64,000 nucleotides of DNA. Source: Crossaster papposus (lineage: Eukaryota; Echinodermata; Asteroidea; Velatida; Solasteridae). Where the stretch lies: positions 1,488,001-1,552,000 of the forward strand of contig JBAIAA010000262.1 in NCBI GenBank assembly GCA_037893245.1. Reading direction: 5' to 3'. This document shows positions 1-64,000 of this stretch, piece after piece; within the stretch, counting starts at the first letter, position 1, and the number at the start of each line of letters is the position of its first letter. Position numbers and translations under genes: made by a program. The notes below the pieces were generated by a model, which made no database searches, was not told where the DNA came from, and saw nothing but the letters and a program-made list of their open reading frames with translations.

Positions 1-9
1 AAAACTCTT

Positions 10-81
10 TAGCAGAGCGAGGTTTTGGTCCTCGGACATCTGGGTTATGGGACCAGCACGCTCACACTGCTCCACTCTACT
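10..81 (-). pseudogene. Type-D tRNA-iMet-like module (representative)
   Basis: This is the first of many D modules. It is a 72-nt iMet relative with a CAT anticodon, but the anticodon stem is changed (CTGGT opposite CCCAG), the D-arm is altered (GTGGAGCAGTGTG), and the T-loop reads ACCAAAA instead of ATCGAAA, so the Pol III B box is damaged. The T-stem itself still pairs. It is followed by the long AT-rich spacer and then a C module. A tRNA pseudogene is the best reading. Confidence 0.75.
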
Positions 82-183
82 TCATGTACATTTAGAAACA
101 GCAAACAAAATGAAAGCAGACATTCTAAAAACATTCTAAAATATGTATTAAATTTGAATAACAGTGAAGCAAAAATACCTCTT

Positions 184-255
184 TAGCAGAGCGAGGTTTT
201 GGTCTTCGGACCTCTGGGTTATGGGCCCTGCACGCTCCCACTGCAACACTCTGCG
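184..255 (-). pseudogene. Type-C tRNA-iMet-like module (representative)
   Basis: This is the first of many C modules. It keeps the acceptor stem and anticodon stem-loop (CAT here) of iMet. It carries a TTGC D-stem strand that no longer pairs fully, an A:C mismatch in the T-stem, and the ACCAAAA T-loop that breaks the B box. C modules elsewhere have a CTT anticodon (for example 739-810) or CGT (for example 1295-1366). The short spacer on its plus-strand right side carries the GAAAATGAAATC motif used at recombinant junctions. Confidence 0.75.
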
Positions 256-304
256 TAACTATTTTTAATGAAAATGAAATCACTATCAAGGAAATAATTA
301 TTCT

Positions 305-376
305 GAGCAGACCGAGGTTGTGGTCATCCGAACTCTCGGTTACTGACCAAGAAAGTGTCTACTTCGTCACTCTGAG
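305..376 (-). pseudogene. Type-B module, old tRNA-iMet derivative (representative)
   Basis: Laid without gaps against the intact iMet of this window, this module matches about 50 of 72 positions by my hand count, including AGAGTG at the 5' side, GTAACC around the anticodon 3' side, and the CTGCT acceptor end. The anticodon position reads AGT, the first acceptor pair and the pair next to the D-arm are lost, and the B box reads GACCACAACC. B modules are the most numerous kind, and a subtype with AATATCGG in place of AACTCTCGG occurs throughout. Both 1.6-kb mobile elements are inserted in B modules. Confidence 0.7.
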
Positions 377-1120
377 TCGAGTACCTCAAGTCTTACCAAA
401 AACTTGTTAGCAGAGCGAAATGAAATAAAAATGAAATCACTATCAAGGACATAATTATCCTGAGCACACCGAGGTTGTGGTCATCCGAAATATCGGTTAC
501 TGGCCAAGAAAGTGTCTACTTCGTCACTCTGAGTCGGGTACCTCAAGTCATACCAAAAACGTGTTAGCAGAGCGAGGTTTCGATCTCTGGACATCTGGGT
601 TAAGGGCCCAGCACGCTTCCACTGCGCCACTCTACTTCATGTAAATTTAGAAACAGCAAACAAAATGAAAGCAGACATTCTAGAAACATTCTCAAATATT
701 TATTAAATTTGAATAACAGTGAAGCAAAAATATCTCTTTAGCAGAGCGAGGTTTTGGTCTTCGGACCTCTGGGTTAAGGGCCCAGCACGCTCCAACTGCA
801 ACACTCTGCGTAACTATTTTTAATGAAAATGAAATCACTATCAAGGAAATAATTATTCTGAGCAGACCGAGGTTGTGGTCATCCGAACTCTCGGTTACTG
901 ACCAAGAAAGTGTCTACTTCGTCACTCTGAGTCGAGTACCTCAAGTCATACCAAAAACTTGTTAGCAGAGCGAAATGAAAATGAAAATGAAATCACTATC
1001 AAGGACATAGTTATCCTGAGCAGACCGAGGTTGTGGTCATCCGAACTCTCGGTTACTTACCAAGAAAGTGTCTACTTCGTCACTCTGAATCGAGTACCTC
1101 AAGTCATACCAAAAACTTGT

Positions 1121-1192
1121 TAGCAGAGCGAGGTTTCGATCCTCGGACCACTGGGTTATGGGCCCAGCACGCTTCCACTGCGCCACTCTACT
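1121..1192 (-). tRNA. Initiator tRNA-Met, type F (CAT)
   Basis: Type F differs from the intact iMet by C3 to T in the acceptor stem (a G:U wobble, AGTAGAG/CTCTGCT) and A44 to T in the variable region. All stems can still pair, and the A and B boxes and CAT loop are unchanged. The five-T stop is present. It could be functional or a very young pseudogene. Confidence 0.82.
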
Positions 1193-1518
1193 TCATGTAA
1201 AGTTAGAAACAGCAAACAAAATGAAAGCAGACATTCTAAAAACATTCTAAAATATTTATTAAATTTGAATAACAGTTAAGCAAATATACCTCTTTAGCAG
1301 AGCGAGGTTTTGGTCTTCGGACCTCTAGGTTACGGGCCCAGCACGCTCCCACTGCAACACTCTGCGTAACTATCTTTCCTGAAAATGAAATCACTATCAC
1401 GGAAATAATTATCCTGAGCAGACCGAGGTTGTGGTCATCCGAACTCTCGGTTACTTACCAAGAAATTGTCTACTTCGTCACTCTGAGTCGAGTACCTCAA
1501 GTCATACCAAAAACTTGT

Positions 1519-1590
1519 TAGCAGAGCGAGGTTTCGATCCTCGGACCTCTGGGTTATGGGCCCAGCACGCTTCCACTGCGCCACTCTGCT
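1519..1590 (-). tRNA. Initiator tRNA-Met (CAT), intact
   Basis: This is an exact 72-nt initiator tRNA-Met, decoding AUG at translation start. On the minus strand the acceptor stem is AGCAGAG/CTCTGCT with discriminator A. The D-arm starts GCGC, the anticodon arm is CTGGG-CCCATAA-CCCAG with C at position 33, and the T-arm is CGAGG-ATCGAAA-CCTCG. A1:U72, three consecutive G:C pairs and A54/A60 are initiator hallmarks. The internal A box (TGGCGCAGTGG) and B box (GATCGAAACC) fit RNA polymerase III. A five-T stop lies 5 nt past the 3' end (plus-strand AAAAA at 1509-1513). CCA is not encoded and there is no intron. Whether it is transcribed inside a satellite cannot be told from sequence. Confidence 0.92.
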
Positions 1591-2804
1591 TCATGTGAAT
1601 TTAGAAACAGAAAACAAAATTAAAGCAGACATTCTAAAAACATTCTAAAATATGTATTACATGGGAATAACAGTGAAGCAAACAAAAACTCTTTAGCAGA
1701 GCGAGGTTTTGGTCCTCGGACATCTGGGTTATGGGACCAGCACGCTCACACTGCTCCACTCTACTTCATGTACATTTAGAAACAGCAAACAAAATGAAAG
1801 CAGACATTCTAAAAACATTCTAAAATATGTATTAAATTTGAATAACAGTGAAGCAAAAATACCTCTTTAGCAGAGCGAGGTTTTGGTCTTCGGACCTCTG
1901 GGTTATGGGCCCTGCACGCTCCCACTGCAACACTCTGCGTAACTATTTTTAATGAAAATGAAATCACTATCAAGGAAATAATTATTCTGAGCAGACCGAG
2001 GTTGTGGTCATCCGAACTCTCGGTTACTGACCAAGAAAGTGTCTACTTCGTCACTCTGAGTCGAGTACCTCAAGTCATACCAAAAACTTGTTAGCAGAGC
2101 GAAATGAAATAAAAATGAAATCACTATCAAGGACATAATTATCCTGAGCACACCGAGGTTGTGGTCATCCGAAATATCGGTTACTGGCCAAGAAAGTGTC
2201 TACTTCGTCACTCTGAGTCGGGTACCTCAAGTCATACCAAAAACGTGTTAGCAGAGCGAGGTTTCGATCTCTGGACATCTGGGTTAAGGGCCCAGCACGC
2301 TTCCACTGCGCCACTCTACTTCATGTAAATTTAGAAACAGCAAACAAAATGAAAGCAGACATTCTAGAAACATTCTCAAATATTTATTAAATTTGAATAA
2401 CAGTGAAGCAAAAATATCTCTTTAGCAGAGCGAGGTTTTGGTCTTCGGACCTCTGGGTTAAGGGCCCAGCACGCTCCAACTGCAACACTCTGCGTAACTA
2501 TTTTTAATGAAAATGAAATCACTATCAAGGAAATAATTATTCTGAGCAGACCGAGGTTGTGGTCATCCGAACTCTCGGTTACTGACCAAGAAAGTGTCTA
2601 CTTCGTCACTCTGAGTCGAGTACCTCAAGTCATACCAAAAACTTGTTAGCAGAGCGAAATGAAAATGAAAATGAAATCACTATCAAGGACATAGTTATCC
2701 TGAGCAGACCGAGGTTGTGGTCATCCGAACTCTCGGTTACTTACCAAGAAAGTGTCTACTTCGTCACTCTGAATCGAGTACCTCAAGTCATACCAAAAAC
2801 TTGT

Positions 2805-2876
2805 TAGCAGAGCGAGGTTTCGATCCTCGGACCACTGGGTTATGGGCCCAGCACGCTTCCACTGCGCCACTCTACT
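2805..2876 (-). tRNA. Initiator tRNA-Met, type F (CAT)
   Basis: Same sequence as the type-F copy at 1121, one 1684-bp unit further on. Confidence 0.82.
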
Positions 2877-3202
2877 TCATGTAAAGTTAGAAACAGCAAA
2901 CAAAATGAAAGCAGACATTCTAAAAACATTCTAAAATATTTATTAAATTTGAATAACAGTTAAGCAAATATACCTCTTTAGCAGAGCGAGGTTTTGGTCT
3001 TCGGACCTCTGGGTTACGGGCCCAGCACGCTCCCACTGCAACACTCTGCGTAACTATCTTTCCTGAAAATGAAATCACTATCACGGAAATAATTATCCTG
3101 AGCAGACCGAGGTTGTGGTCATCCGAACTCTCGGTTACTTACCAAGAAATTGTCTACTTCGTCACTCTGAGTCGAGTACCTCAAGTCATACCAAAAACTT
3201 GT

Positions 3203-3274
3203 TAGCAGAGCGAGGTTTCGATCCTCGGACCTCTGGGTTATGGGCCCAGCACGCTTCCACTGCGCCACTCTGCT
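3203..3274 (-). tRNA. Initiator tRNA-Met (CAT), intact
   Basis: The 72 nt are identical to the copy at 1519, of which it is the 1684-bp higher-order-repeat counterpart. The five-T stop is retained. Confidence 0.92.
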
Positions 3275-4489
3275 TCATGTGAATTTAGAAACAGAAAACA
3301 AAATTAAAGCAGACATTCTAAAAACATTCTAAAATATGTATTACATGGGAATAACAGTGAAGCAAACAAAAACTCTTTAGCAGAGCGAGGTTTTGGTCCT
3401 CGGACATCTGGGTTATGGGACCAGCACGCTCACACTGCTCCACTCTACTTCATGTACATTTAGAAACAGCAAACAAAATGAAAGCAGACATTCTAAAAAC
3501 ATTCTAAAATATGTATTAAATTTGAATAACAGTGAAGCAAAAATACCTCTTTAGCAGAGCGAGGTTTTGGTCTTCGGACCTCTGGGTTATGGGCCCTGCA
3601 CGCTCCCACTGCAACACTCTGCGTAACTATTTTTTAATGAAAATGAAATCACTATCAAGGAAATAATTATTCTGAGCAGACCGAGGTTGTGGTCATCCGA
3701 ACTCTCGGTTACTGACCAAGAAAGTGTCTACTTCGTCACTCTGAGTCGAGTACCTCAAGTCATACCAAAAACTTGTTAGCAGAGCGAAATGAAATAAAAA
3801 TGAAATCACTATCAAGGACATAATTATCCTGAGCACACCGAGGTTGTGGTCATCCGAAATATCGGTTACTGGCCAAGAAAGTGTCTACTTCGTCACTCTG
3901 AGTCGGGTACCTCAAGTCATACCAAAAACGTGTTAGCAGAGCGAGGTTTCGATCTCTGGACATCTGGGTTAAGGGCCCAGCACGCTTCCCCTGCGCCACT
4001 CTACTTCATGTAAATTTAGAAACAGCAAACAAAATGAAAGCAGACATTCTAGAAACATTCTAAAATATTTATTAAATTTGAATAACAGTGAAGCAAAAAT
4101 ATCTCTTTAGCAGAGCGAGGTTTTGGTCTTCGGACCTCTGGGTTAAGGGCCCAGCACGCTCCAACTGCAACACTCTGCGTAACTATTTTTAATGAAAATG
4201 AAATCACTATCAAGGAAATAATTATTTTGAGCAGACCGAGGTTGTGGTCATCCGAACTCTCGGTTACTGACCAAGAAAGTGTCTACTTCGTCACTCTGAG
4301 TCGAGTACCTCAAGTCATACCAAAAACTTGTTAGCAGAGCGAAATGAAAATGAAAATGAAATCACTATCAAGGACATAGTTATCCTGAGCAGACCGAGGT
4401 TGTGGTCATCCGAACTCTCGGTTACTTACCAAGAAAGTGTCTACTTCGTCACTCTGAATCGAGTACCTCAAGTCATACCAAAAATTTGT

Positions 4490-4561
4490 TAGCAGAGCGA
4501 GGTTTCGATCCTCGGACCACTGGGTTATGGGCCCAGCACGCTTCCACTGCGCCACTCTACT
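4490..4561 (-). tRNA. Initiator tRNA-Met, type F (CAT)
   Basis: Body as at 1121. The downstream flank reads AAATTTTTGG on the minus strand, so the five-T stop is kept but shifted in context. Confidence 0.8.
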
Positions 4562-8485: not shown

Positions 8486-8752
8486 TCATGTAAAGTTAGA
8501 AACAGCAAACAAAATGAAAGCAGACATTCTAAAAACATTCTAAAATATTTATTAAATTTGAATAACAGTTAAGCAAATATACCTCTTTAGCAGAGCGAGG
8601 TTTTGGTCTTCGGACCTCTGGGTTACGGGCCCAGCACGCTCCCACTGCAACACTCTGCGTAACTATCTTTCCTGAAAATGAAATCACTATCACGGAAATA
8701 ATTATCCTGAGCAGACCGAGGTTGTGGTCATCCGAACTCTCGGTTACGTTAA

Positions 8753-8859
8753 GGAGAAATGACGAAAAAGTGGACATTCTTTGATTCGAATGGGCGAGGA
8801 CGCGCAGCGTCCGAGCCCAATTTGAATCAAAGAATGTCCACCTTTTGAGTCGTTTCTCC
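8753..8859. repeat. Terminal hairpin of copy 1
   Basis: This is a long near-perfect inverted repeat with arms of about 50 bp running from GGAGAAATGACG to CGTTTCTCC, with the loop around the GGACGC/GCGTCC centre near 8805. A few mismatches are present (for example GAAAAAG opposite CCTTTTGAG). It sits 5 bp from the element end. Confidence 0.9.
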
Positions 8860-8862
8860 GAC

Positions 8863-8871
8863 TTAAACTAC
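8863..8871. repeat. Subterminal inverted repeat of copy 1 (inner arm)
   Basis: TTAAACTAC, the inverted complement of the right tip GTAGTTTAA at 10384-10392. It forms the asymmetric terminal inverted repeat. Confidence 0.8.
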
Positions 8872-9384
8872 GTCCCTTTTACACCCATTGTCAATATTTA
8901 AAAGGAACAACAAGTGTCAATTCTTACTAATGCTTTAAAGTATGAGACGATTTAATTACATTGTTCAGTGGTGCAAGCTACTAAGGAATGTGAAAGCTTT
9001 GTCCTGTCTAGTCTCCGTGTTGCGTAACCAAACAAGTGAATAAAGGTTGGGTAAAATGAGGGTGTTTAAAATGCCCAGTACATTCGACTTCGAAGTCATT
9101 TGATGCCATACATTGTTGTGCGTCGGGTGTGTCTCTGCTAACTCCGCTAATATGTCTTCCAGTGAGGATCCGTACATATTTTTGAGTAGGAATACGTTGG
9201 GAGATATGTTGTGTCACTTCAAGAACTGACTCGCCAATTTATTTTGATGGTGATTTACACCAGTATTTTGGGACATATTCGATGAGGATTTTATACTCCA
9301 ATGAGGATTTATACTAAAGCGGCAAATTCAGAGGTGAAGAAACTTCCTACTACTCGTGGCTGATTTGGACCCCTAACGGATCAG

Positions 9385-10018
9385 GTAATGATGGAAAATA
9401 AGCAAGAAAAGGAAACAAGAACTTGTTATTCCCAACATTTGGCTTAGCTCTCATCAGCAGCTCATTTTGGCTTAATATTTTTACCAATTTTAGCCCTTTT
9501 TATGGTGTAACAATATCGTCAGTAGTCATTATTCCGTGTCGAAAGTATACCAGCCTTTTGTTAAACCCTGAACGGTTTCATTATCACACGTCAAACCAGA
9601 CTCGGAACAAAACTAATTTCTGTTGGTTTTTCTGCCGTTTTTGCTACACAGGTATACGACAGGACAGGACAACATGGGCGAGTTAGCGAATGTAAAGTAC
9701 ATGTACGTGTTGTACGTATACCAGCCCTTTTAAAGTTGTGCATTATAGTAGTACTTTTTAGGACCTTCGAACGTATGACATAACTATGACCTATCTCCGT
9801 CGAAAATTATTCCCATTTACAAGAAATGTACATATTTTAAATTGCAAACCATCGCTTCGACCTTGCTAATAAAAAGGTTTATCCTCCATTTGTTTTCTTA
9901 GTGGTAATAAGTTCTTGGGCCATTTTCATTTTCGAATGTTTTAGACAAACCTTGATGCAATTTGTTACATGCGGTTTGGCGCATCCATCTTATTTTATTT
10001 TTGTTGTTGATATCCCAG
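9385..10018 (+). other. Intron-like segment in copy 1
   Basis: It begins GTAATG after CAG and ends with a T-rich tract and ATATCCCAG. Joining its flanks keeps an open frame from at least 9318 through the exon-like segment at 10019. No branch point or transcript evidence is available, so this is a hypothesis that the element carries captured gene sequence. Confidence 0.25.
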
Positions 10019-10125
10019 GTTGTGGCAAATCTGTGCAACAAGGCTTTTGGACGAACCACTCCATACGATCGAGCATGGCAGCATCTCGTCTCTACAACAA
10101 GGGCTTCGGTGGCCAGAACCAGTGA
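10019..10125 (+). other. Exon-like open frame in copy 1
   Basis: The frame following the ATATCCCAG acceptor-like site encodes GCGKSVQQGFW near its start and ends at a TGA at 10123-10125. The TGA lies in a 38-bp segment absent from the other element copy; there the same frame stays open through an arginine/lysine-rich tail. I do not recognise the protein. It may be a captured host exon or chance. Confidence 0.25.
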
Positions 10126-10251
10126 GGATCATAGGAGAGCAGTCAGCCGGGCTTAAACTGCATAAGCGCGTCGACACGGCAAAGAGACCTCCAAGACAAT
10201 TAACTGTTGAAAGCTCTAAAGAAACTGTCAACATAGCTCTTACTAAGTTGT

Positions 10252-10257
10252 AATAAA
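10252..10257 (+). promoter_or_regulatory. Possible polyadenylation signal (AATAAA)
   Basis: AATAAA directly overlaps a TAA stop at 10251-10253, downstream of the exon-like frame. It suits a captured 3' gene end but is weak evidence in AT-rich DNA. Confidence 0.25.
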
Positions 10258-10316
10258 TATAACAATAGCAATTTCTGTGTCCACTGAGTCGTTCTTTTTC
10301 TGTTAATTCTTAAAAT

Positions 10317-10338
10317 AATGTACAGTTAACTGTACATT
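10317..10338. repeat. 22-bp perfect palindrome in copy 1
   Basis: AATGTACAGTT and its complement, centred on GTTAAC. In the second element copy the palindrome is longer (12688-12717). Function unknown; it could be a protein-binding or hairpin site near the hairpin-less end of the element. Confidence 0.8.
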
Positions 10339-10370
10339 CTTTAAAATAATCGACACTTTTCTGAATAGAG

Positions 10371-10378
10371 TGACGTCA
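10371..10378. promoter_or_regulatory. TGACGTCA palindrome (CRE-like) in copy 1
   Basis: TGACGTCA is the known consensus of CREB/ATF sites. It lies 14 bp from the element tip and is present in both copies. It may be a terminal recognition site or a coincidence. Confidence 0.35.
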
Positions 10379-10383
10379 CAAGA

Positions 10384-10392
10384 GTAGTTTAA
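10384..10392. repeat. Terminal inverted repeat of copy 1 (outer arm)
   Basis: GTAGTTTAA at the extreme end of the element, pairing with 8863-8871. Confidence 0.8.
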
Positions 10393-12637: not shown

Positions 12638-12646
12638 TTAAACTAC
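12638..12646. repeat. Terminal inverted repeat of copy 2 (outer arm)
   Basis: TTAAACTAC at the left tip; its inverted partner GTAGTTTAA is at 14123-14131, just inside the hairpin. Confidence 0.8.
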
Positions 12647-12687
12647 TCTTGTGACGTCACTCTATTCAGAAAAGTGTCGATTATTTT

Positions 12688-12717
12688 AAAGAATGTACAG
12701 TTAACTGTACATTCTTT
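12688..12717. repeat. 30-bp perfect palindrome in copy 2
   Basis: This runs from AAAGAATGTACAG to CTGTACATTCTTT around GTTAAC. It is longer and cleaner than the corresponding site in copy 1, which has lost outer pairing through small changes. Confidence 0.8.
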
Positions 12718-12793
12718 TAAGAATTAACAGAAAAAGAACGACTCAGTGGACACAGAAATTGCTATTGTTATATTTATTACAACTTAGTAAGAG

Positions 12794-13096
12794 CTATATG
12801 TTGACAGTTTCTTTAGAGCTTTCAACAGTTAATTGTCTTGAAGGTCTCTTTGCCGTGTCGACGCGCTTATGCGGTTTCTGGCCACCGAAGCCCTTGTTGT
12901 AGAGACGAGATGCTGCCATGCTCGATCGTATGGAGTGGTTCGTCCAAAAGCCTTGTTGCACAGATTTGCCACAACCTGGGATATCAACAATAACAAAAAT
13001 AAAATAAGATGGATGCACCAAACCGCATGTAACAAATTGCATCAAGGTTTGTCTAAAACATTCGAAAATGAAAATGGCCCAAGAAATTATTACCAC
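12794..13096 (-). other. Exon-like open frame in copy 2
   Basis: An open frame without an ATG start spans the intron-like tail and the exon-like segment. After KGFGGQ it continues into a basic stretch (KPHKRVDTAKRPSRQ) because the 38-bp stop-containing segment of copy 1 is absent. It stops at a TAG created by the extra AT; copy 1 instead reads NIALTKL and then TAA at the equivalent place. Each copy therefore has its own disruption. No family recognised. Confidence 0.25.
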
Positions 13097-14122: not shown

Positions 14123-14131
14123 GTAGTTTAA
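14123..14131. repeat. Subterminal inverted repeat of copy 2 (inner arm)
   Basis: GTAGTTTAA, 3 bp inside the hairpin, inverted relative to the left tip at 12638-12646. Confidence 0.8.
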
Positions 14132-14134
14132 GTC

Positions 14135-14241
14135 GGAGAAACGACTCAAAAGGTGGACATTCTTTGATTCAAATTGGGCTCGGACGCTGCGCGTCCTCGC
14201 CCATTCGAATCAAAGAATGTCCACTTTTTCGTCATTTCTCC
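14135..14241. repeat. Terminal hairpin of copy 2
   Basis: A 107-bp near-perfect inverted repeat, same length and sequence as in copy 1, 5 bp from the right end. Confidence 0.9.
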
Positions 14242-51800: not shown

Positions 51801-51876
51801 TCATGTGAATTTAGAAACAGAAAACAAAATTAAAGCAGACATTCTAAAAACATTCTAAAATATGTATTACATTGGA

Positions 51877-51888
51877 TTAATAAATACC
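51877..51888. repeat. Terminal inverted repeat of the 305-bp element (outer arm)
   Basis: TTAATAAATACC, perfectly inverted at 51999-52010 beside the hairpin. Confidence 0.85.
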
Positions 51889-51998
51889 TAGGAGAGTTCA
51901 AAGCTTCTGATTGGTCGAGACTCGATCACGTGGAGGGCATTACCACGCAGTAATTGACCGGGCTTTCAAAAATTCACTGTTTTTCCCCTAAAACAAAA

Positions 51999-52010
51999 GG
52001 TATTTATTAA
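51999..52010. repeat. Subterminal inverted repeat of the 305-bp element (inner arm)
   Basis: GGTATTTATTAA, one base inside the hairpin, partner of the left tip. Confidence 0.85.
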
Positions 52011-52011
52011 A

Positions 52012-52178
52012 GGAAATAACAGGGTGAGTACCCGATCATTACTGCGTGATAATTGACCGGGTTGGGCGATGACCGCTGGTAATAGACCTCGCCTTCGGCT
52101 CGGTCTATTACCATTGGTCATCGCCCAACCCGGTCAATTATCACGCAGTAATGACCGGGTACTCACCCTGTTATTTCC
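52012..52178. repeat. Long terminal hairpin of the 305-bp element
   Basis: Arms of roughly 77 bp run from GGAAATAACAGGG to CCCTGTTATTTCC with only a few mismatches (for example GATC opposite GACC, and GCT opposite ATT near the apex); the loop lies around GCCTTCGGC. A related stretch, CACGCAGTAATTGACCGGG, also occurs outside the hairpin at about 51934. Confidence 0.9.
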
Positions 52179-54320
52179 TAAATAACAGTGAAGCAAAAAA
52201 AATCTTTAGCAGAGCGAGGTTTTGGTCCTCGGACATCTGGGTTATTGGCCCAGAACGCTCACACTGCTCCACTCTACTTCATGTACATTTAGAAACAGCA
52301 ATCAAAATGAAAGCAGACATTCTAAAAACATTCAAAAATATTTATTACATTTGAATAACAGTGAAGCAAAAATACCTCTTTAGCAGAGCGAGGTTTTGGT
52401 CTTCCGACCTCTGGGTTATGGGCCCAGCACGCTCACACTGCAACACTCTGCGTAACTATTTTTAATGAAAATGAAATCACTATCAAGGAAATAATTATTC
52501 TGAGCAGACCGAGGTTGTGGTCATCCGAACACTCGGTTACTGACCAAGAAAGTGTCTACTTCGTCACTCTGAGTCGAGTACCTCAAGTCATACCAAGAAC
52601 TTGTTAGCAGAGCGAGGTTTCGATCCTCGGACCTCTGGGTTATGGGCCCAGTACGCTTCCACTGCGCCACTCTGCTTCATGTGAATTTAGAAACAGAAAA
52701 CAAAATTAAAGCTGACATTCTAAAAACATTCTAAAATATGTATTACATTGGAATAACAGTGAAGCAAAAACAATCTTTAGCAGAGCGAGGTTTTGGTCCT
52801 CGGACATCTGGGTTATGGGCCCAGCACGCTTCCACTGCGCCACTCTGCTTCATGTGAATTTAGAAACAGAAAACAAAATTAAAGCAGACATTCTAAAAAC
52901 ATTCTAAAATATGTATTACATTGGAATAACAGTGAAGCAAAAAAATCTTTAGCAGAGCGAGGTTTTGGTCCTCGGACATCTGGGTTATTGGCCCAGAACG
53001 CTCACACTGCTCCACTCTACTTCATGTACATTTAGAAACAGCAATCAAAATGAAAGCAGACATTCTAAAAACATTCTAAAATATTTATTACATTTGAATA
53101 ACAGTGAAGCAAAAATACCTCTTTAGCAGAGCGAGGTTTTGGTCTTCGGACCTCTGGGTTATGGGCCCAGCACGCTCCCACTGCAACACTCTGCGTAACT
53201 ATTTTTAATGAAAATGAAATCACTATCAAGGAAATAATTATTCTGAGCAGACCGAGGTTGTGGTCATCCGAACTCTCGGTTACTGACCAAGAAAGTGTCT
53301 ACTTCGTCACTCTGAGTCGAGTACCTCAAGTCATACCAAGAACTTGTTAGCAGAGCGAGGTTTCGATCCTCGGACCTCTGGGTTATGGGCCCAGTACGCT
53401 TCCACTGCGCCACTCTGCTTCATGTGAATTTAGAAACAGAAAACAAAATTAAAGCAGACATTCTAAAAACATTCTAAAATATGTATTACATTGGAATAAC
53501 AGTGAAGCAAAAACAATCTTTAGCAGAGCGAGGTTTTGGTCTTCGGAAATCTGGGTTATTGGCCCAGCACGCTCACACTGCTCCACTGTACTTCATGTAC
53601 ATTTAGAAACAGCAATCAAAATGAAAGCAGACATTCTAAAAACATTCTAAAATATTTATTACATTTGAATAACAGTGAAGCAAAAATACCTCTTTAGCAG
53701 AGCGAGGTTTTGGTCTTCCGACCTCTGGGTTATGGGCCCAGCACGCTCCCACTGTACCACTCTGCGTAACTATTTTTGTAATGAAAATGAAATCACTATC
53801 AAGGAAATAATTATTCTGAGCAGACCGAGGTTGTGGTCATCCGAACTCTCAGTTACTGACCAAGAAAGTGTCTACTTCGTCACTCTGAGTCGAGTACCAC
53901 AAGTCATACCAAAAACTTGTTAGCCGAGCGAGGTTTCGATCCTCGGACCTCTGGGTTATGGGCCCAGCACGCTTCCACTGCGCCACTCTGCTTCATGTGA
54001 ATTTAGAAACAGCAAACAAAATGAAAGCAGACATTCTAAAAACATTCTAAAATATTTATTACATTTGAATAACAGTGAAGCAAAAATACCTCTTTAGCAG
54101 AGCGAGGTTTTGGTCTTCGGACCTCTGGGTTATGGGCCCAGCACGCTCCCACTGTACCACTCTGCGTAACTATTTGTGTAATGAAAATGAAATCACTATC
54201 AAGGACATAATTATCCTGAGCAGACCGAGGTTGTGGTCATCCGAAATATCGGTTACTGGCCAAGAAAGTGTCTACTTCGTCACTCTGAGTCGAGTACCTC
54301 AAGTCATACCAAAAACTTGT

Positions 54321-54392
54321 TAGCAGAGCGAGGTTTCGATCCTCGGACCTCTGGGTTAAGGGCCCAGCACGCTTCCACTGCGCCACTCTACT
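54321..54392 (-). tRNA. Initiator-type tRNA body with CTT anticodon, all stems paired
   Basis: Unlike type E, this copy keeps the full T-arm (CGAGG-ATCGAAA-CCTCG), the A and B boxes, the anticodon stem CTGGG/CCCAG and a five-T stop, yet its loop reads CCCTTAA. The result is a foldable initiator tRNA body whose anticodon would read AAG (lysine codon). The acceptor has the same G:U wobble as type F. Alternatives are a recombinant pseudogene between types E and A. Whether it is expressed or charged is unknown. Confidence 0.7.
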
Positions 54393-55116
54393 TCATGTAA
54401 AGTTAGAAACAGCAAACAAAATGAAAGCGGACATTCTAAAAACATTCTAAAATATTTATTAAATTTGAATAACAGTTAAACAAAAATACCTCTTTAGCAG
54501 AGCGAGGTTTTGGTCTTCGGACCTCTGGGTTATGGGACCAGCACGCTCCCACTGCAACACTCTGCCTAACAGTCTTTCCTGAAAATGAAATCACTATCAA
54601 GGAAATAATTATCCTGAGCACACCGAGGTTGTGGTCATCCGAACTCTCGGTTACTGACCAAGAAAGTGTCTACTTCGTCACTCTGAGTCGAGTACCTCAA
54701 GTCATACCAAAAACTTGTTAGCAGAGCGAGGTTTCGATCCTCTGACCTCTGGGTTATGGGCCCAGCACGCTTCCACTGCGCCACTCTGCTTCATGTGAAT
54801 TTAGAAACAGAAAACAAAATTAAAGCAGACATTCTAAAAACATTCTAAAATATGTATTACATTTGAATAACAGTGAAGCAAAACAAACTCTTCAGCAGAG
54901 CGAGGTTTTGGTCCTCGGACATCTGGGTTATGGGCCCAGCACGCTCACATTGCAACACTCTGCGTAACTATTTTTAATGAAAATGAAATCACTATCAAGA
55001 AAATAATTATTCTGAGCAGACCGAGGTTGTGGTCATCCGAACTCTCGGTTACTGACCAAGAAAGTGTCTACTTCGTCACTCTGAGTCGAGTACCTCAAGT
55101 CATACCAAGAACTTGT

Positions 55117-55188
55117 TAGCAGAGCGAGGTTTCGATCCTCGGACCTCTGGGTTATGGGCCCAGCACGCTTCCACTGCGCCACTCTGCT
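55117..55188 (-). tRNA. Initiator tRNA-Met (CAT), intact, stop lost
   Basis: The 72-nt sequence is exact, but the downstream run is broken by one substitution (plus-strand CCAAGAAC), leaving no T4 or longer within about 10 nt. Confidence 0.88.
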
Positions 55189-57229
55189 TCATGTGAATTT
55201 AGAAACAGAAAACAAAATTAAAGCAGACATTCTAAAAACATTCTAAAATATGTATTACATTGGAATAACAGTGAAGCAAAAAAAATCTTTAGCAGAGCGA
55301 GGTTTTGGTCCTCGGACATCTGGGTTATTGGCCCAGCACGCTCACACTGCTCCACTCTACTTCATGTACATTTAGAAACAGCAATCAAAATGAAAGCAGA
55401 CATTCTAAAAACATTCTAAAATATTTATTACATTTGAATAACAGTGAAGCAAAAATACCTCTTTAGCAGAGCGAGGTTTTGGTCTTCCGACCTCTGGGTT
55501 ATGGGCCCAGCACGCTCCCACTGTACCACTCTGCGTAACTATTTTTGTAATGAAAATGAAATCACTATCAAGGAAATAATTATTCTGAGCAGACCGAGGT
55601 TGTGGTCATCCGAACTCTCGGTTACTTACCAAGAAAGTGTCTACTTTGTCACTCTGAATCGAGTACCTCAAGTCATACAAAAAACTTGTTAGCAGAGCGA
55701 GGTTTCGATCCTCGGACCTCTGGGTTATGGGCCCAGCACGCTCATACTGCTCCACTCTACTTCATGTAAATTTAGAAACAGCAATCAAAATGAAAGCAGA
55801 CATTCTAAAAACATTCTAAAATATGTATTACATTTGAATAACAGTGAAGCAAAAATACCTCTTTAGCAGAACGAGGTTTTGGTCCTCGGACATCTGGGTT
55901 ATGGGCCCAGCACGCTCACACTGCTCCACTCTACTTCATGTAAATTTAGAAACAGCAATCAAAATGAAAGCAGACATTCTAAAAACATTCTAAAATATTT
56001 ATTACATTTGAATAACAGTGAAGCAAAAATACCTCTTTAGCAGAGCGAGGTTTTGGTCTTCGGATCTCTGGGTTATGGGCCCTGCACGCTCCCACTGCAA
56101 CACTCTGCGTAACTATTTTTAATGAAAATGAAATCACTATCAAGGACATAATTATCCTGAGCAGACCGAGGTTGTGGTCATCCGAAATATCGGTTACTGG
56201 CCAAGAAAGTGTCTACTTCGTCACTCTGAGTCGGGTACCTCAAGTCATACCAAAAACGTGTTAGCAGAGCGAGGTTTCGATCTTTGGACATCTGGGTTAA
56301 GGCCCAGCACGCTTCCACTGCGCCACTCTACTTCATGTAAAGTTAGAAACAGCAAACAAAATGAAAGCAGACATTCTAAAAACATTCTAAAATATTTATT
56401 AAATTTGAATAACAGTGAAGCAAAAATACCTCTTTAGCAGAGCGAGGTTTTGGTCTTCGGACCTCTGGGTTATGGGCCCAGCACGTTCCCACTGCAACAC
56501 TCTGCGTAACTATTTTAAATGAAAATGAAATCACTATCAAGGAAATAATTATTCTGAGCAGACCGAGGTTGTGGTCATCCGAACTCTCGGTTACTTACCA
56601 AGAAAGTGTCTACTTCGTCACTCTGAATCGAGTACCTCAAGTCATACCAAAAACTTGTTAGCAGAGCGAGGTTTCGATCTTTGGACATCTGGGTTAAGGC
56701 CCAGCACGCTTCCACTGCGCCACTCTGCTTCATGTGAATTTAGAAACAGAAAACAAAATTAAAGCAGACATTCTAAAAACATTCTAAAATATGTATTACA
56801 TTTGAATAACAGTGAAGCAAAACAAACTCTTCAGCAGAGCGAGGTTTTGGTCCTCGGACATCTGGGTTATTGGCCCAGCACGCTCACACTGCTCCACTCT
56901 ACTTCATGTACATTTAGAAACAGCAAACAAAATGAAAGCAGACATTCTAAAAACATTCTAAAATATGTATTACATTTGAATAACAGTTAAGCAAATATAC
57001 CTCTTTAGCAGAGCGAGGTTTTGTACTTCGGACCTCTGGGTTACGGGCCCAGCACGCTCCCACTGCAACACTCTGGGTAACTATCTTTCCTGAAAATGAA
57101 ATCACTACCAAGGAAATAATTATCCTGAGCAGACCGAGGTTGTGGTCATCCGAACTCTCGGTTACTGACCAAGAAAGTGTCTACTTCGTCACTCTGAGTC
57201 GAGTACCTCAAGTCATACCAAAAACTTGT

Positions 57230-57301
57230 TAGCAGAGCGAGGTTTCGATCCTCGGACCTCTGGGTTATGGGCCCAGCACGCTCCCACTGCGCCACTCTGC
57301 T
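57230..57301 (-). tRNA. Initiator tRNA-Met (CAT), D-loop variant
   Basis: It differs from the intact copy by one D-loop base (AGTGGGA in place of AGTGGAA). All stems, the boxes, the CAT loop and the five-T stop are intact, so it is as plausible a gene as the exact copies. Confidence 0.82.
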
Positions 57302-59571
57302 TCATGTGAATTTAGAAACAGAAAACAAAATTAAAGCAGACATTCTAAAAACATTCTAAAATATGTATTACATTTGAATAACAGTGAAGCAAAAATACCT
57401 CTTTAGCAGAACGAGGTTTTGGTCCTCGGACATCTGGGTTATGGGCCCAGCACGCTCCCACTGCTCCACTCTACTTCATGTACATTTAGAAACAGCAAAC
57501 AAAATGAAAGCAGACATTCTAAAAACATTCTAAAATATGTATTACATTTGAATAACAGTTAAGCAAATATACCTCTTTAGCAGAGCGAGGTTTTGGACTT
57601 CGGACCTCTTGTTTAAGGGCCCAGCACGCTCCCACTGAAACACTCTGGGTAACTATCTTTCCTGAAAATGAAATCACTACCAAGGAAATAATTATCCTGA
57701 GCAGACCGAGGTTGTGGTCATCCGAACTCTCGGTTACTTACCAAGAAAGTGTCTACTTCGTCACTCTGAGTCGAGTACCTCAAGTCATACCAAAAACTTG
57801 TTAGCAGAGCGAGGTTTCGATCCTCGGACATCTTGGTTAAGGGCCCAGCACGCTTCCACTGCGCCACTCTACTTCATGTAAAGTTAGAAACAGCAAACAA
57901 AATGAAAGCAGACATTCTAAAAACATTCTAAAATATTTATTAAATTTGAATAACAGTTAAGCAAAAATCACTCTTTAGCAGAGCGAGGTTTTGGTCTTCG
58001 GACCTCTGGGTTATGGGCCCAGCACGCTCCCACTGCAACACTCTGCGTAACTGTTTTTAATGAAAATGAAATCACTATCAAGGAAATAATTATCCTGAGC
58101 AGACCGAGGTTGTGGTCATCCGAACTCTCGGTTACTGACCAAGAAAGTGTCTACTTCGTCACTCTGAGTCGAGTACCTCAAGTCATACCAAAAACTTGTT
58201 AGCAGAGCGAGGTTTCTATCCTTCGACCTCTGGGTTATGGGCCCAGCACGCTTCCACTGCGCCACTCTGCTTCATGTGAATTTAGAAACAGAAAACAAAA
58301 TGAAAGCAGACATTCTAAAAACATTCTAAAATATTTATTACATTTGAATAACAGTGAAGCAAAAATACCTCTTTAGCAGAGCGAGGTTTTGATCTTCGGA
58401 CCTCTGGGTTATGGGCCCAGCACGCTCCCACTGCAACACTCTGCGTAACTAATTTTAATGAAAATGAAATCACTATCAAGGAAATACTTATTCTGAGCAG
58501 ATCGAGGTTGTGGTCATCCGAACTCTCGGTTACTGACCAAGAAAGTGTCTACTTCGTCACTCTGAGTCGAGTACCTCAAGTCATACCAAAAACTTGTTAG
58601 CAGAGCGAGGTTTCGATCCTCGGACCTCTGGGTTATGGGCCCAGCAGGCTTCCACTGCGCCACTCTGCTTCATGTGAATTTAGAAACAGAAAACAAAATT
58701 AAAGGAGACATTCTAAAAACATTCTAAAATATGTATTACATTTGAATAACAGTGAAGCAAAAATACCTCTTTAGCAGAACGAGGTTTTGGTCCTCGGACA
58801 TCTGGGTTATGGGCCCAGCACGCTCCCACTGCTCCACTCTACTTCATGTACATTTAGAAACAGCAAACAAAATGAAAGCAGACATTCTAAAAACATTCTA
58901 AAATATGTATTACATTTGAATAACAGTTAAGCAAAAATACCTCTTTAGCAGAGCGAGGTTTTGGTCTTCCGACCTCTGGGTTATGGGCCCAGCACGCTCC
59001 CACTGTACCACTCTGCGTAACTATTTTTGTAATGAAAATGAAATCACTATCAAGGAAATAATTATTCTGAGCAGACCGAGGTTGTGGTCATCCGAACTCT
59101 CAGTTACTGACCAAGAAAGTGTCTACTTCGTCACTCTGAGTCGAGTACCTCAAGTCATACCAAAAACTTGTTAGCCGAGCGAGGTTTCGATCCTCGGACC
59201 TCTGGGTTATGGGCCCAGCACGCTTCCACTGCGCCACTCTGCTTCATGTGAATTTAGAAACAGCAAACAAAATGAAAGCAGACATTCTAAAAACATTCTA
59301 AAATATTTATTACATTTGAATAACAGTGAAGCAAAAATACCTCTTTAGCAGAGCGAGGTTTTGGTCTTCGGACCTCTGGGTTATGGGCCCAGCACGCTCC
59401 CACTGTACCACTCTGCGTAACTATTTGTGTAATGAAAATGAAATCACTATCAAGGACATAATTATCCTGAGCAGACCGAGGTTGTGGTCATCCGAAATAT
59501 CGGTTACTGGCCAAGAAAGTGTCTACTTCGTCACTCTGAGTCGAGTACCTCAAGTCATACCAAAAACTTGT

Positions 59572-59643
59572 TAGCAGAGCGAGGTTTCGATCCTCGGACC
59601 TCTGGGTTAAGGGCCCAGCACGCTTCCACTGCGCCACTCTACT
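59572..59643 (-). tRNA. Initiator-type tRNA body with CTT anticodon, all stems paired
   Basis: This is the exact 5251-bp duplicate of the copy at 54321, including the five-T stop. Confidence 0.7.
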
Positions 59644-60367
59644 TCATGTAAAGTTAGAAACAGCAAACAAAATGAAAGCGGACATTCTAAAAACATTCTA
59701 AAATATTTATTAAATTTGAATAACAGTTAAACAAAAATACCTCTTTAGCAGAGCGAGGTTTTGGTCTTCGGACCTCTGGGTTATGGGACCAGCACGCTCC
59801 CACTGCAACACTCTGCCTAACAGTCTTTCCTGAAAATGAAATCACTATCAAGGAAATAATTATCCTGAGCACACCGAGGTTGTGGTCATCCGAACTCTCG
59901 GTTACTGACCAAGAAAGTGTCTACTTCGTCACTCTGAGTCGAGTACCTCAAGTCATACCAAAAACTTGTTAGCAGAGCGAGGTTTCGATCCTCTGACCTC
60001 TGGGTTATGGGCCCAGCACGCTTCCACTGCGCCACTCTGCTTCATGTGAATTTAGAAACAGAAAACAAAATTAAAGCAGACATTCTAAAAACATTCTAAA
60101 ATATGTATTACATTTGAATAACAGTGAAGCAAAACAAACTCTTCAGCAGAGCGAGGTTTTGGTCCTCGGACATCTGGGTTATGGGCCCAGCACGCTCACA
60201 TTGCAACACTCTGCGTAACTATTTTTAATGAAAATGAAATCACTATCAAGAAAATAATTATTCTGAGCAGACCGAGGTTGTGGTCATCCGAACTCTCGGT
60301 TACTGACCAAGAAAGTGTCTACTTCGTCACTCTGAGTCGAGTACCTCAAGTCATACCAAGAACTTGT

Positions 60368-60439
60368 TAGCAGAGCGAGGTTTCGATCCTCGGACCTCTG
60401 GGTTATGGGCCCAGCACGCTTCCACTGCGCCACTCTGCT
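60368..60439 (-). tRNA. Initiator tRNA-Met (CAT), intact, stop lost
   Basis: This is the exact 5251-bp duplicate of the copy at 55117, with the same broken downstream T-run. Confidence 0.88.
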
Positions 60440-62480
60440 TCATGTGAATTTAGAAACAGAAAACAAAATTAAAGCAGACATTCTAAAAACATTCTAAAAT
60501 ATGTATTACATTGGAATAACAGTGAAGCAAAAAAAATCTTTAGCAGAGCGAGGTTTTGGTCCTCGGACATCTGGGTTATTGGCCCAGCACGCTCACACTG
60601 CTCCACTCTACTTCATGTACATTTAGAAACAGCAATCAAAATGAAAGCAGACATTCTAAAAACATTCTAAAATATTTATTACATTTGAATAACAGTGAAG
60701 CAAAAATACCTCTTTAGCAGAGCGAGGTTTTGGTCTTCCGACCTCTGGGTTATGGGCCCAGCACGCTCCCACTGTACCACTCTGCGTAACTATTTTTGTA
60801 ATGAAAATGAAATCACTATCAAGGAAATAATTATTCTGAGCAGACCGAGGTTGTGGTCATCCGAACTCTCGGTTACTTACCAAGAAAGTGTCTACTTTGT
60901 CACTCTGAATCGAGTACCTCAAGTCATACAAAAAACTTGTTAGCAGAGCGAGGTTTCGATCCTCGGACCTCTGGGTTATGGGCCCAGCACGCTCATACTG
61001 CTCCACTCTACTTCATGTAAATTTAGAAACAGCAATCAAAATGAAAGCAGACATTCTAAAAACATTCTAAAATATGTATTACATTTGAATAACAGTGAAG
61101 CAAAAATACCTCTTTAGCAGAACGAGGTTTTGGTCCTCGGACATCTGGGTTATGGGCCCAGCACGCTCACACTGCTCCACTCTACTTCATGTAAATTTAG
61201 AAACAGCAATCAAAATGAAAGCAGACATTCTAAAAACATTCTAAAATATTTATTACATTTGAATAACAGTGAAGCAAAAATACCTCTTTAGCAGAGCGAG
61301 GTTTTGGTCTTCGGATCTCTGGGTTATGGGCCCTGCACGCTCCCACTGCAACACTCTGCGTAACTATTTTTAATGAAAATGAAATCACTATCAAGGACAT
61401 AATTATCCTGAGCAGACCGAGGTTGTGGTCATCCGAAATATCGGTTACTTACCAAGAAAGTGTCTACTTCGTCACTCTGAATCGAGTACCTCAAGTCATA
61501 CCAAAAACTTGTTAGCAGAGCGAGGTTTCGATCTTTGGACATCTGGGTTAAGGCCCAGCACGCTTCCACTGCGCCACTCTACTTCATGTAAAGTTAGAAA
61601 CAGCAAACAAAATGAAAGCAGACATTCTAAAAACATTCTAAAATATTTATTAAATTTGAATAACAGTGAAGCAAAAATACCTCTTTAGCAGAGCGAGGTT
61701 TTGGTCTTCGGACCTCTGGGTTATGGGCCCAGCACGTTCCCACTGCAACACTCTGCGTAACTATTTTAAATGAAAATGAAATCACTATCAAGGAAATAAT
61801 TATTCTGAGCAGACCGAGGTTGTGGTCATCCGAACTCTCGGTTACTTACCAAGAAAGTGTCTACTTCGTCACTCTGAATCGAGTACCTCAAGTCATACCA
61901 AAAACTTGTTAGCAGAGCGAGGTTTCGATCTTTGGACATCTGGGTTAAGGCCCAGCACGCTTCCACTGCGCCACTCTGCTTCATGTGAATTTAGAAACAG
62001 AAAACAAAATTAAAGCAGACATTCTAAAAACATTCTAAAATATGTATTACATTTGAATAACAGTGAAGCAAAACAAACTCTTCAGCAGAGCGAGGTTTTG
62101 GTCCTCGGACATCTGGGTTATTGGCCCAGCACGCTCACACTGCTCCACTCTACTTCATGTACATTTAGAAACAGCAAACAAAATGAAAGCAGACATTCTA
62201 AAAACATTCTAAAATATGTATTACATTTGAATAACAGTTAAGCAAATATACCTCTTTAGCAGAGCGAGGTTTTGTACTTCGGACCTCTGGGTTACGGGCC
62301 CAGCACGCTCCCACTGCAACACTCTGGGTAACTATCTTTCCTGAAAATGAAATCACTACCAAGGAAATAATTATCCTGAGCAGACCGAGGTTGTGGTCAT
62401 CCGAACTCTCGGTTACTGACCAAGAAAGTGTCTACTTCGTCACTCTGAGTCGAGTACCTCAAGTCATACCAAAAACTTGT

Positions 62481-62552
62481 TAGCAGAGCGAGGTTTCGAT
62501 CCTCGGACCTCTGGGTTATGGGCCCAGCACGCTCCCACTGCGCCACTCTGCT
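62481..62552 (-). tRNA. Initiator tRNA-Met (CAT), D-loop variant
   Basis: This is the 5251-bp duplicate of the copy at 57230, with the same single D-loop change. Confidence 0.82.
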
Positions 62553-64000
62553 TCATGTGAATTTAGAAACAGAAAACAAAATTAAAGCAGACATTCTAAA
62601 AACATTCTAAAATATGTATTACATTTGAATAACAGTGAAGCAAAAATACCTCTTTAGCAGAACGAGGTTTTGGTCCTCGGACATCTGGGTTATGGGCCCA
62701 GCACGCTCCCACTGCTCCACTCTACTTCATGTACATTTAGAAACAGCAAACAAAATGAAAGCAGACATTCTAAAAACATTCTAAAATATGTATTACATTT
62801 GAATAACAGTTAAGCAAATATACCTCTTTAGCAGAGCGAGGTTTTGGACTTCGGACCTCTTGGTTAAGGGCCCAGCACGCTCCCACTGAAACACTCTGGG
62901 TACCTATCTTTCCTGAAAATGAAATCACTACCAAGGAAATAATTATCCTGAGCAGACCGAGGTTGTGGTCATCCGAACTCTCGGTTACTTACCAAGAAAG
63001 TGTCTACTTCGTCACTCTGAGTCGAGTACCTCAAGTCATACCAAAAACTTGTTAGCAGAGCGAGGTTTCGATCCTCGGACATCTTGGTTAAGGGCCCAGC
63101 ACGCTTCCACTGCGCCACTCTACTTCATGTAAAGTTAGAAACAGCAAACAAAATGAAAGCAGACATTCTAAAAACATTCTAAAATATTTATTAAATTTGA
63201 ATAACAGTTAAGCAAAAATCACTCTTTAGCAGAGCGAGGTTTTGGTCTTCGGACCTCTGGGTTATGGGCCCAGCACGCTCCCACTGCAACACTCTGCGTA
63301 ACTGTTTTTAATGAAAATGAAATCACTATCAAGGAAATAATTATCCTGAGCAGACCGAGGTTGTGGTCATCCGAACTCTCGGTTACTGACCAAGAAAGTG
63401 TCTACTTCGTCACTCTGAGTCGAGTACCTCAAGTCATACCAAAAACTTGTTAGCAGAGCGAGGTTTCTATCCTTCGACCTCTGGGTTATGGGCCCAGCAC
63501 GCTTCCACTGCGCCACTCTGCTTCATGTGAATTTAGAAACAGAAAACAAAATGAAAGCAGACATTCTAAAAACATTCTAAAATATTTATTACATTTGAAT
63601 AACAGTGAAGCAAAAATACCTCTTTAGCAGAGCGAGGTTTTGATCTTCGGACCTCTGGGTTATGGGCCCAGCACGCTCCCACTGCAACACTCTGCGTAAC
63701 TAATTTTAATGAAAATGAAATCACTATCAAGGAAATACTTATTCTGAGCAGATCGAGGTTGTGGTCATCCGAACTCTCGGTTACTGACCAAGAAAGTGTC
63801 TACTTCGTCACTCTGAGTCGAGTACCTCAAGTCATACCAAAAACTTGTTAGCAGAGCGAGGTTTCGATCCTCGGACCTCTGGGTTATGGGCCCAGCAGGC
63901 TTCCACTGCGCCACTCTGCTTCATGTGAATTTAGAAACAGAAAACAAAATTAAAGGAGACATTCTAAAAACATTCTAAAATATGTATTACATTTGAATAA

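Follow-up and report, generated by a model that had tools for sequence, protein, structure and literature searches.

The window, by which is meant the whole 64-kb stretch of DNA analysed here, consists of modules derived from initiator tRNA-Met (iMet), interrupted by three insertions. The data presented below argue that an iMet locus, together with its decayed paralogues, was probably amplified into a higher-order satellite of approximately 9 Mb that is now mostly silent. In this way, a gene for an essential RNA, the promoter of which lies within the repeat unit, would have become a megabase higher-order satellite.

Module composition and unit structure

Searches of the window with nhmmer were seeded with one iMet and with one diverged module. 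Each seed gave 433 matches, on the minus strand only, and merging of the hits yielded 436 iMet-derived modules, all on that strand. The satellite (1..64000) has its transcription sense on the minus strand. The merged modules comprise 270 iMet-like (T) and 166 diverged (D) copies. Outside the insertions, which account for approximately 3.6 kb of the 64 kb, the mean module pitch is approximately 139 bp, and tRNA-derived modules make up about half of the array (72/139 nt). The window contains no N. The original prediction had described iMet relatives throughout, apart from three insertions, with about 140 bp per module and on the order of 400 modules; these figures agree well with the measurements. 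It had also proposed three spacer types, but four main spacer lengths (34, 46, 86 and 102 nt) were measured. The 86-nt spacer is a fusion in which a 46-type spacer is joined to the remaining 3′ part of an iMet module and the 34-nt spacer.

It is apparent that the modules follow a simple grammar, P-D(1-2)-T(1-2), which accounts for 429 of the 436: one near-intact iMet is followed by one or two D modules and then by one or two iMet-like copies, the promoter boxes of these closing copies being mostly damaged. A representative unit, on the minus strand, opens at position 1 with an M module (1519..1590) that is 72 nt long, identical to the genes of an ordinary iMet cluster on contig C885, and scores 58.7 bits with the Rfam tRNA model. 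It has a CAT anticodon, the iMet A and B boxes, and a TTTTT run 6–10 nt beyond its 3′ end. That run lies in the 34-nt spacer (1485..1518) leading from M to a D module (1413..1484), a strongly diverged iMet relative. A 46-nt spacer (1367..1412) then leads to a C module (1295..1366), an iMet copy in which the A and B boxes are damaged (ACCAAAACC in place of ATCGAAACC), and a 102-nt spacer (1193..1294) leads from C (or, in other cases, B) to the next unit. The satellite-specific trailer sequence is ACAAGTTTTT. The C and B consensus sequences lack a B box, and C, B and K differ from the 72-nt M consensus at 7, 6 and 5 positions, respectively.

Three pairs of tandem higher-order units were identified on the minus strand: at 565..3932 (1,684 bp each, 99.88% identical), 46000..50565 (2,283 bp each, 99.91%) and 53124..63625 (5,251 bp each, 99.45%). 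With related monomers running head to tail over a long distance in near-identical multimers, the array is by structure a higher-order satellite; with tRNA genes head to tail as its units, it is by structure also a tandem tRNA gene array. The grammar and the near-identical blocks bear out the earlier description of a giant compound satellite with higher-order units, and the extent of the array, presented below, exceeds what had been claimed.

The first insertion (8748..10392) is a 1,645-bp element that interrupts a D module, the flanks of which rejoin exactly, with no target duplication. The second (12638..14246) is an inverted copy of this element, likewise with no target duplication; it matches the first at 99.2% over 1,373 nt and at 97.9% over another 240 nt. 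The third (51874..52177, bounds approximate) is an element of approximately 300 bp with a long palindrome, situated inside a 102-nt-type spacer. A blastn search of phage sequences with the first 8 kb of the 64 kb matched only Campylobacter phage (8 records, 80–81% identity); the similarity is confined to a tRNA-sized stretch, and these matches were set aside as irrelevant to the array.

tRNA homology and gene-like features of the modules

Alignment of the D seed with iMet paired 50 of 72 positions, with a score of 78. The scores of 1,000 shuffles averaged 30.2 (s.d. 4.4) and reached at most 49, so the likeness is not due to chance. The gathering score of the Rfam tRNA model was passed at 161 places in the window (150 of them listed), which in number corresponds to 37% of 436. 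ARAGORN called 89 tRNAs in the window, every one of them in a T-type module; calls were made in none of the 166 D modules, none of the 106 C modules and only 1 of the 39 B modules, and C and D together represent 272 of the 436. Covariance scoring, proposed earlier as the check on tRNA homology, thus backs only part of the array: the 161 places are tRNA-like today, and the other modules are tRNA-derived by alignment only.

Eukaryotic initiator tRNAs are marked by an A1:U72 pair, an anticodon stem with three G:C pairs, A54 with A60, a CAT anticodon and an intact B-box core. All five features were kept in 168 of 386 position-1 modules, taken from stretches chosen by position, and in 64 of the 270 T modules in the window. 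At least one feature, or the 72-nt length, was missing in 218 of the 386, while 55 were identical to the C885 gene. Judged by sequence, the position-1 modules with all five features would qualify as initiator tRNA-Met genes, a designation that holds for those copies only. Among 370 position-1 modules having an intact B-box core, 322 were followed by a run of four or more T residues within 25 nt, and many position-1 modules could therefore be transcribed. One pattern representing iMet with an alternative T stem gave no matches.

Genome-wide extent and variability of the array

The array extends well beyond the window. In samples, it was found on the window's own 3.16-Mb contig (C262) from approximately 0.1 to 2.6 Mb, on C146 at 2.9–3.0, 4.3–4.44 and 5.44–6.5 Mb, in both cases with gaps, and on C13, giving three array contigs among those sampled. 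It occurs in both orientations on two of the three, and in two subfamilies, the copies of which carry scattered differences and insertions. Exact-pattern counts gave 1,281 copies of the perfect 72-nt iMet and 7,292 copies of its 3′ 50 nt genome-wide, from which a rough satellite total of ~9 Mb was obtained. These results suggest that iMet-derived copies, intact and decayed, number in the tens of thousands, over megabases. Five of the 1,281 perfect copies form the C885 cluster of identical genes, the flanks of which are unrelated to the satellite, the likeness ending at the tRNA edges; the M consensus matches the C885 gene at every one of the 72 positions. The suggestion of an amplified tRNA locus is thus supported, on a larger scale than was put forward.

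Blocks that are 99.4–99.9% identical are difficult to assemble, and in the 1.02-Gb assembly a locus may be represented by both of its haplotypes, in which case the counts would be twofold too high. False expansion is nevertheless highly improbable, given the scattered differences, insertions and two subfamilies among the copies, the presence of the array on three sampled contigs, two of them with both orientations, and the absence of N from the 28 loci checked as well as from the window. A SINE origin, which would be expected to leave dispersed copies with a tail and target duplications, was also considered. Exact matches to the 5′ part with a non-array base at flank position −1 or −3 (n=40) lay on C146 and C262 (35) or in the C885 cluster (5), and this search, which covered exact matches, listed array contigs and that cluster only. 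On contig C479, tRNA-Lys(TTT) forms an array of its own, with 572-bp units; amplification of tRNA loci has thus occurred repeatedly in this genome. The mitochondrial code suggests that the genome is that of an echinoderm, and the order of the mitochondrial tRNA genes that it is probably that of a sea star.

In aligned window-type position-1 copies, nucleotide diversity (pi) in the tRNA body was 0.0620, compared with 0.0704 on the upstream side and 0.0480 on the downstream side (P 0.49 by permutation); body values for the C, D and B modules were 0.040, 0.049 and 0.055, respectively. As the body is as variable as the spacers, no selection for tRNA function is seen in the window-type copies. By this measure, the tRNA genes of the array do not appear to be kept functional by selection, and the C, B and D modules are decayed. 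A contrary result came from a fixed-offset count over both subfamilies, in which body pi was 0.081 versus 0.151 and 0.182 in the flanks, with 0 of 10,000 permutations as low. This was attributed to subfamily differences and flank indels; since the signal is gone in the aligned window-type copies, constraint on position 1 is not claimed. An aligned count of 455 position-1 copies, representing both subfamilies plus loci from the exact iMet search, gave 0.083 for the body, 0.104 upstream and 0.060 downstream. Lower body values were obtained in copies chosen because their anticodon and B box are intact (0.0345, n=169; 0.051 with flanks of 0.090 and 0.039, n=284, M/m), a choice that itself favours low values. 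Also weighing against the explanation preferred below, the M consensus, although identical to the C885 gene, differs from B at 4 positions of the 102-nt spacer that lies upstream. By consensus reading these would have arisen on the M side, the M spacer having changed and the M body not, which fits constraint on M before the expansion but may also fit re-seeding or some later constraint.

With so many perfect iMet copies, a selected increase in iMet dosage might be considered, and the genome-wide counts of the perfect sequence (1,281) and of its 3′ 50 nt (7,292) are consistent with it. That explanation is very doubtful, however, as the window-type copies lack body constraint, the 272 C and D modules give no ARAGORN tRNA and the B modules give just one in 39.

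Variability in the B box was 0.035, versus a body mean of 0.062, but 22 of 154 equal-length windows across module and flanks were as low, and the same stretch in C modules, most of which lack a B box, gave 0.033. For the A box, 41 of 153 windows were as low. Constraint on the promoter boxes was accordingly rejected, and the earlier idea of a very large TFIIIC-binding chromatin boundary finds no support. These results also bear on a (peri)centromeric role, in which tRNA boxes would aid chromosome structure through loading of TFIIIC, condensin or cohesin. A megabase higher-order array would suit such a role, as would the 67-, 86- and 217-bp satellites on the array contigs, the 217-bp array having been sampled between iMet arrays on C146. 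That 217-bp satellite is, however, an equally good centromere candidate, and with C and B lacking a B box and B-box variability unexceptional, the role is rather improbable. A centromeric or heterochromatic nature of the satellite is plausible.

An oocyte-type reservoir, in which intact M genes would be opened and transcribed in oogenesis to stock eggs while C885 serves the body, also appears unlikely. The perfect copies, the retention of all five initiator features in 168 of 386 sampled modules and the T runs in 322 of 370 are supportive of it. The tRNA body is, however, as variable as the spacers in window-type copies, 218 of the 386 miss a feature or the 72-nt length, and the array has brought the C, B and D modules with it. 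The mature sequence, moreover, gives no sign of a switch to a maternal isodecoder, since the M copies of the satellite and the genes of C885 encode an identical tRNA. There is only a slim chance that more than 1,000 intact iMet genes reside in a heterochromatic satellite opened in oocytes only, with the five-gene cluster used otherwise; translation initiation in the egg would then depend on satellite DNA.

Amplification of an iMet locus with decayed paralogues is the explanation preferred here. The starting point would have been a local iMet locus with one intact gene (M) and paralogues that no longer worked as tRNAs (C and B, along with D, which is older), amplified as a block, via unequal exchange and block duplication, to roughly 9 Mb. 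The iMet used in translation presumably comes mainly from the C885 cluster, most satellite copies probably being silenced in heterochromatin, and the satellite may persist as ordinary DNA, mostly selfish or neutral. Questions are thereby raised concerning the silencing of more than 1,000 perfect Pol III genes for the translation-initiation tRNA, any germ-line use of them, and the effect of internal promoters on satellite spread.

Comparison with known systems

Tandem tRNA arrays are already known; no initiator-tRNA higher-order satellite was found in the literature searched, which takes in a minority of subscription journals. Alpha-satellite-like arrays share the organisation described here, with diverged monomers in near-identical higher-order units, but their monomers are not tRNA-derived. 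The 3.18-kb tandem tRNA repeat of Xenopus laevis, present in hundreds of copies, is likewise an animal tandem tDNA that includes initiator Met genes; it differs in having several different functional tRNAs per unit. In another published system, most tRNA genes, of many types, lie in clusters that are highly repetitive, most notably on a chromosome arm rich in heterochromatin, with isolated genes elsewhere; that system is tied to maternally deposited tRNAs, whereas one initiator tRNA and its decayed relatives are involved here. Entamoeba arrays are functional sets of several tRNAs, in contrast to one tRNA and its pseudogenes. The SYY and P clusters of Arabidopsis comprise Ser, Tyr and Pro elongator tRNAs, on a far smaller scale than here.

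The Arabidopsis clusters resemble the present array in being tandem tRNA genes, theirs in heterochromatin-linked DNA, and are silenced in most tissues and reactivated in specific cells (PMC12308677). They are not known to form a higher-order satellite of one initiator tRNA's decayed paralogues. Entamoeba tRNA genes form tandem arrays, and Nematostella has more than 17,000 tRNA genes and pseudogenes, 89% of them clustered, with neighbours that mostly differ in amino acid, in contrast to the single tRNA family here (PMC2888827). At human 1q23.3, tRNA genes lie in a copy-number-variable tandem repeat with a 7.3-kb unit and 9–43 copies per allele, but occupy less than 6% of the unit (PMC4041453), compared with about half of the array here. 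Annotations of the sea star Asterias amurensis list 14,926 and 6,779 tRNAs (PMC10625585, PMC11090083), and these totals suggest that like arrays may sit unremarked in existing annotations.

Modules, units and higher-order blocks

Two seeds were taken from the window (C262, 1488001–1552000) of the Crossaster papposus assembly (1.023 Gb, 1,841 contigs), one (T) an intact initiator tRNA-Met (iMet) sequence and the other (D) a diverged module. Each seed matched 433 places in the window, on the minus strand throughout, and merging of the T and D matches gave 436 modules, 270 of T-type and 166 of D-type. In an alignment of D with iMet, 50 of 72 positions were identical, with a score of 78 versus a mean of 30.2 and a maximum of 49 for 1,000 shuffles; D is thus a true relative of iMet. 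The Rfam tRNA model identified 161 places above its curated score in the window, and ARAGORN reported 89 tRNAs there. With class letters assigned by sequence marks in the scripts, these 89 comprised 60 of 62 near-intact iMet modules (M), 19 of 42 of their decayed form (K), six of seven m, three of 14 x, one of 39 B, none of 106 C and none of 166 D (B and C being iMet copies with damaged boxes). A stretch 80–81% identical to the window iMet (1519–1590 and like modules) was also observed in eight Campylobacter phage records (CP8, CPX, F336 and others), two of which label it tRNA-Met.

In the sense of transcription, the modules run M or K, 34 nt, D, an optional 86 nt and D, 46 nt, C, 102 nt, and an optional B and 102 nt. 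The corresponding pattern, P D(1–2) T(1–2), with P the first module (position 1), accounts for 113 units and 429 of the 436 window modules; outside it were four extra T modules and one T-less unit (one P, two D). By consensus, the 86-nt spacer is composite: a 46-type spacer plus what is left of an iMet module at its 3′ end, with that module's 34-nt spacer. Tandem higher-order pairs were found of 1,684 bp (99.88% identity), 2,283 bp (99.91%) and 5,251 bp (99.45%), and two more candidate pairs aligned over only 1,315 nt (99.8%) and 965 nt (98.5%). Blocks that are 99.4–99.9% identical suggest unequal exchange and block duplication within the tandem tRNA-derived repeats, by which the units would have been made and homogenised.

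Insertions were also observed. Two oppositely oriented copies of a 1.6-kb element, possibly Helentron-like or another duplication-free transposon, are present (8748–10392 and 12638–14246), with no target-site duplication; the element has a long hairpin close to one of its ends and a short palindrome close to the opposite end. A MITE-like insertion of ~300 bp with a long palindrome lies at ~51874–52177, within a 102-nt-type spacer.

Extent and genomic setting of the array

Besides the window, 45 stretches of its contig, C262 (3,155,417 bp), were sampled. Between 0.1 and 2.6 Mb the array was present in every sample but those at 0.2, 0.25 and 1.70 Mb, with only three modules at 1.35 Mb; both orientations occur on this contig. 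No array was present in the samples at 0–0.06 Mb or in those beyond 2.65 Mb, a region with 67-bp and 86-bp satellites. On C146, it was found in samples at 2.9–3.0, 4.3–4.44 and 5.44–6.5 Mb; there are gaps, and the sample at 6.2 Mb has a single module. Samples from 4.0–5.2 Mb are filled by, or include, a 217-bp satellite. A second subfamily, with units of ~401/802 bp and position-1 modules that carry GGCAT at their 5′ end as a marker, was identified on C13, as well as on C262 at 0.1–0.8 Mb and C146 at 2.9–3.0 Mb. Among the pattern matches listed, at least three contigs carry arrays. The iMet satellite is located alongside other satellites and repeats, which on these contigs have periods of 67, 86, 217, 178/356 and 126/254 bp (loci L045–L048, C262 2.65–3.155 Mb; L055–L061, C146 4.0–5.2 Mb; L009, L025 and L027).

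Exact whole-genome counts were 7,292 for the iMet 3′ 50-mer, 1,281 for the full iMet 72-mer, 3,299 for a D 32-mer and 14,408 for the GGCAT marker; reversed-pattern controls gave no matches for any of these four patterns. In samples, window-type array has 400 full-length marks and 1,356 D marks per Mb, and GGCAT-type array has 62 marks in 27 kb. Division of counts by densities gives rough genome-wide sizes of ~2.4–3.2 Mb and ~6.3 Mb, respectively. Together the two types would amount to ~9 Mb, 0.9% of the assembly, and some 60,000 modules, rough values in which a diploid assembly could double-count loci.

Position-1 copies and ordinary iMet genes

Both iMet boxes, A and B, are present in the M consensus (GGATCGAAACC). 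The consensuses of C and B have ACCAAAACC and A-box changes, and the D consensus differs throughout. In the window and sampled loci, four or more consecutive T occur no further than 25 nt from the 3′ end in 322 of 370 position-1 modules whose B-box core is intact; the same holds for 280 of 304 C, 132 of 133 B and 73 of 552 D modules.

Across an alignment of 308 position-1 copies of window type, pi averaged 0.0704 upstream, 0.0620 in the body and 0.0480 downstream (permutation P 0.49); body values for C, B and D were 0.040, 0.055 and 0.049. The A box (0.043) and B box (0.035) of position-1 copies fell below the body mean, but these values are unexceptional: among windows of matching length, 41 of 153 were as low as the A box and 22 of 154 as low as the B box, and the B-box stretch of C modules was equally low (0.033). 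A fixed-offset count over both subfamilies gave a body pi of 0.081 versus 0.151 and 0.182 in the flanks, with none of 10,000 permutations as low. This result runs counter to that of the aligned copies and is put down to subfamily differences and flank indels. In copies selected for having both anticodon and B box intact, body pi was 0.0345; such selection itself favours low values.

Non-array iMet genes were sought through the 5′ part of iMet, requiring either that −1 not be A or, where −1 is A, that −3 not be T, a search that would miss genes with array-like bases at both positions or an altered 5′ part. It listed 40 places, of which C885 (563–574 kb) has five and the array contigs C146 and C262 have 35. 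Over 72 nt, the five C885 genes match one another and the M consensus exactly. Their flanks are unlike the satellite, with similarity ending where the tRNA does. One of the five has a T9 run. One pattern for iMet with another T stem gave no matches. Partial or decayed iMet-like matches were seen near the cluster (L076 573–641; L086 3193–3233 and 5806–5853).

A survey of 386 position-1 modules, from stretches taken by position (the window, L009–L067 and L077–L085), some sited at earlier search matches, found 332 of 72 nt, 168 with five initiator features and 55 identical to the C885 gene. Consensus bodies differ from that gene by zero (M), five (K), six (B) and seven (C) changes, and the M and B consensuses differ at four of 102 upstream spacer positions. 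Taken together, the pi values, feature survey and consensus comparison can be read as indicating that M was a working gene when block expansion began and has drifted since; alternatively, M may have been re-seeded from real iMet genes.

Other tRNA arrays and comparison with known systems

The loose first pass of a whole-genome tRNA family search returned 213,984 candidates, hinting at very many tRNA-like sequences in the genome; among the 63 scored, many ranked tRNAs were on C479. In a 5-kb sample of that contig (79–84 kb), 572-bp units with a 99% match carry nine tRNA-Lys(TTT) genes, one tRNA per unit in the samples. Two more such genes were found in a 1.5-kb sample at 400 kb and none in that at 250 kb. 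A 3-kb sample of C424 (1.3225 Mb) has four, in 770/654-bp units. These array genes are intact-looking. With the iMet and tRNA-Lys(TTT) arrays, this genome has undergone at least two independent amplifications of tRNA loci.

Two other contigs deserve mention. COX1 on C1841, in the echinoderm mitochondrial code, reads with canonical residues; preceding it are Leu(taa), Tyr and Leu(tag) on the minus strand and Gln on the plus strand, an arrangement that fits the sea-star order. C8 (L068, L070 and L071) has COX1-family matches with no internal stops, one in a 682-codon open frame, and high-scoring tRNAs; it resembles the genome of a bacterium, either a symbiont or a contaminant, within the assembly.

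Most satellite copies are probably silent, as suggested by the lack of constraint and by the Arabidopsis SYY tRNA cluster, which is reported to be silenced (PMC12308677). The rival with the greatest consequence is use of the satellite iMet copies in the germ line, for which zebrafish offers a precedent (PMC11417395). No description of an initiator-tRNA higher-order satellite was found in searches of an open-access library. Two published assemblies of Asterias amurensis have 14,926 and 6,779 tRNAs, the passages giving these counts containing no comment on arrays (PMC10625585, PMC11090083). Tandem tRNA arrays and clusters as such are already known (PMC2888827, PMC4041453, PMC12308677, PMC11417395).
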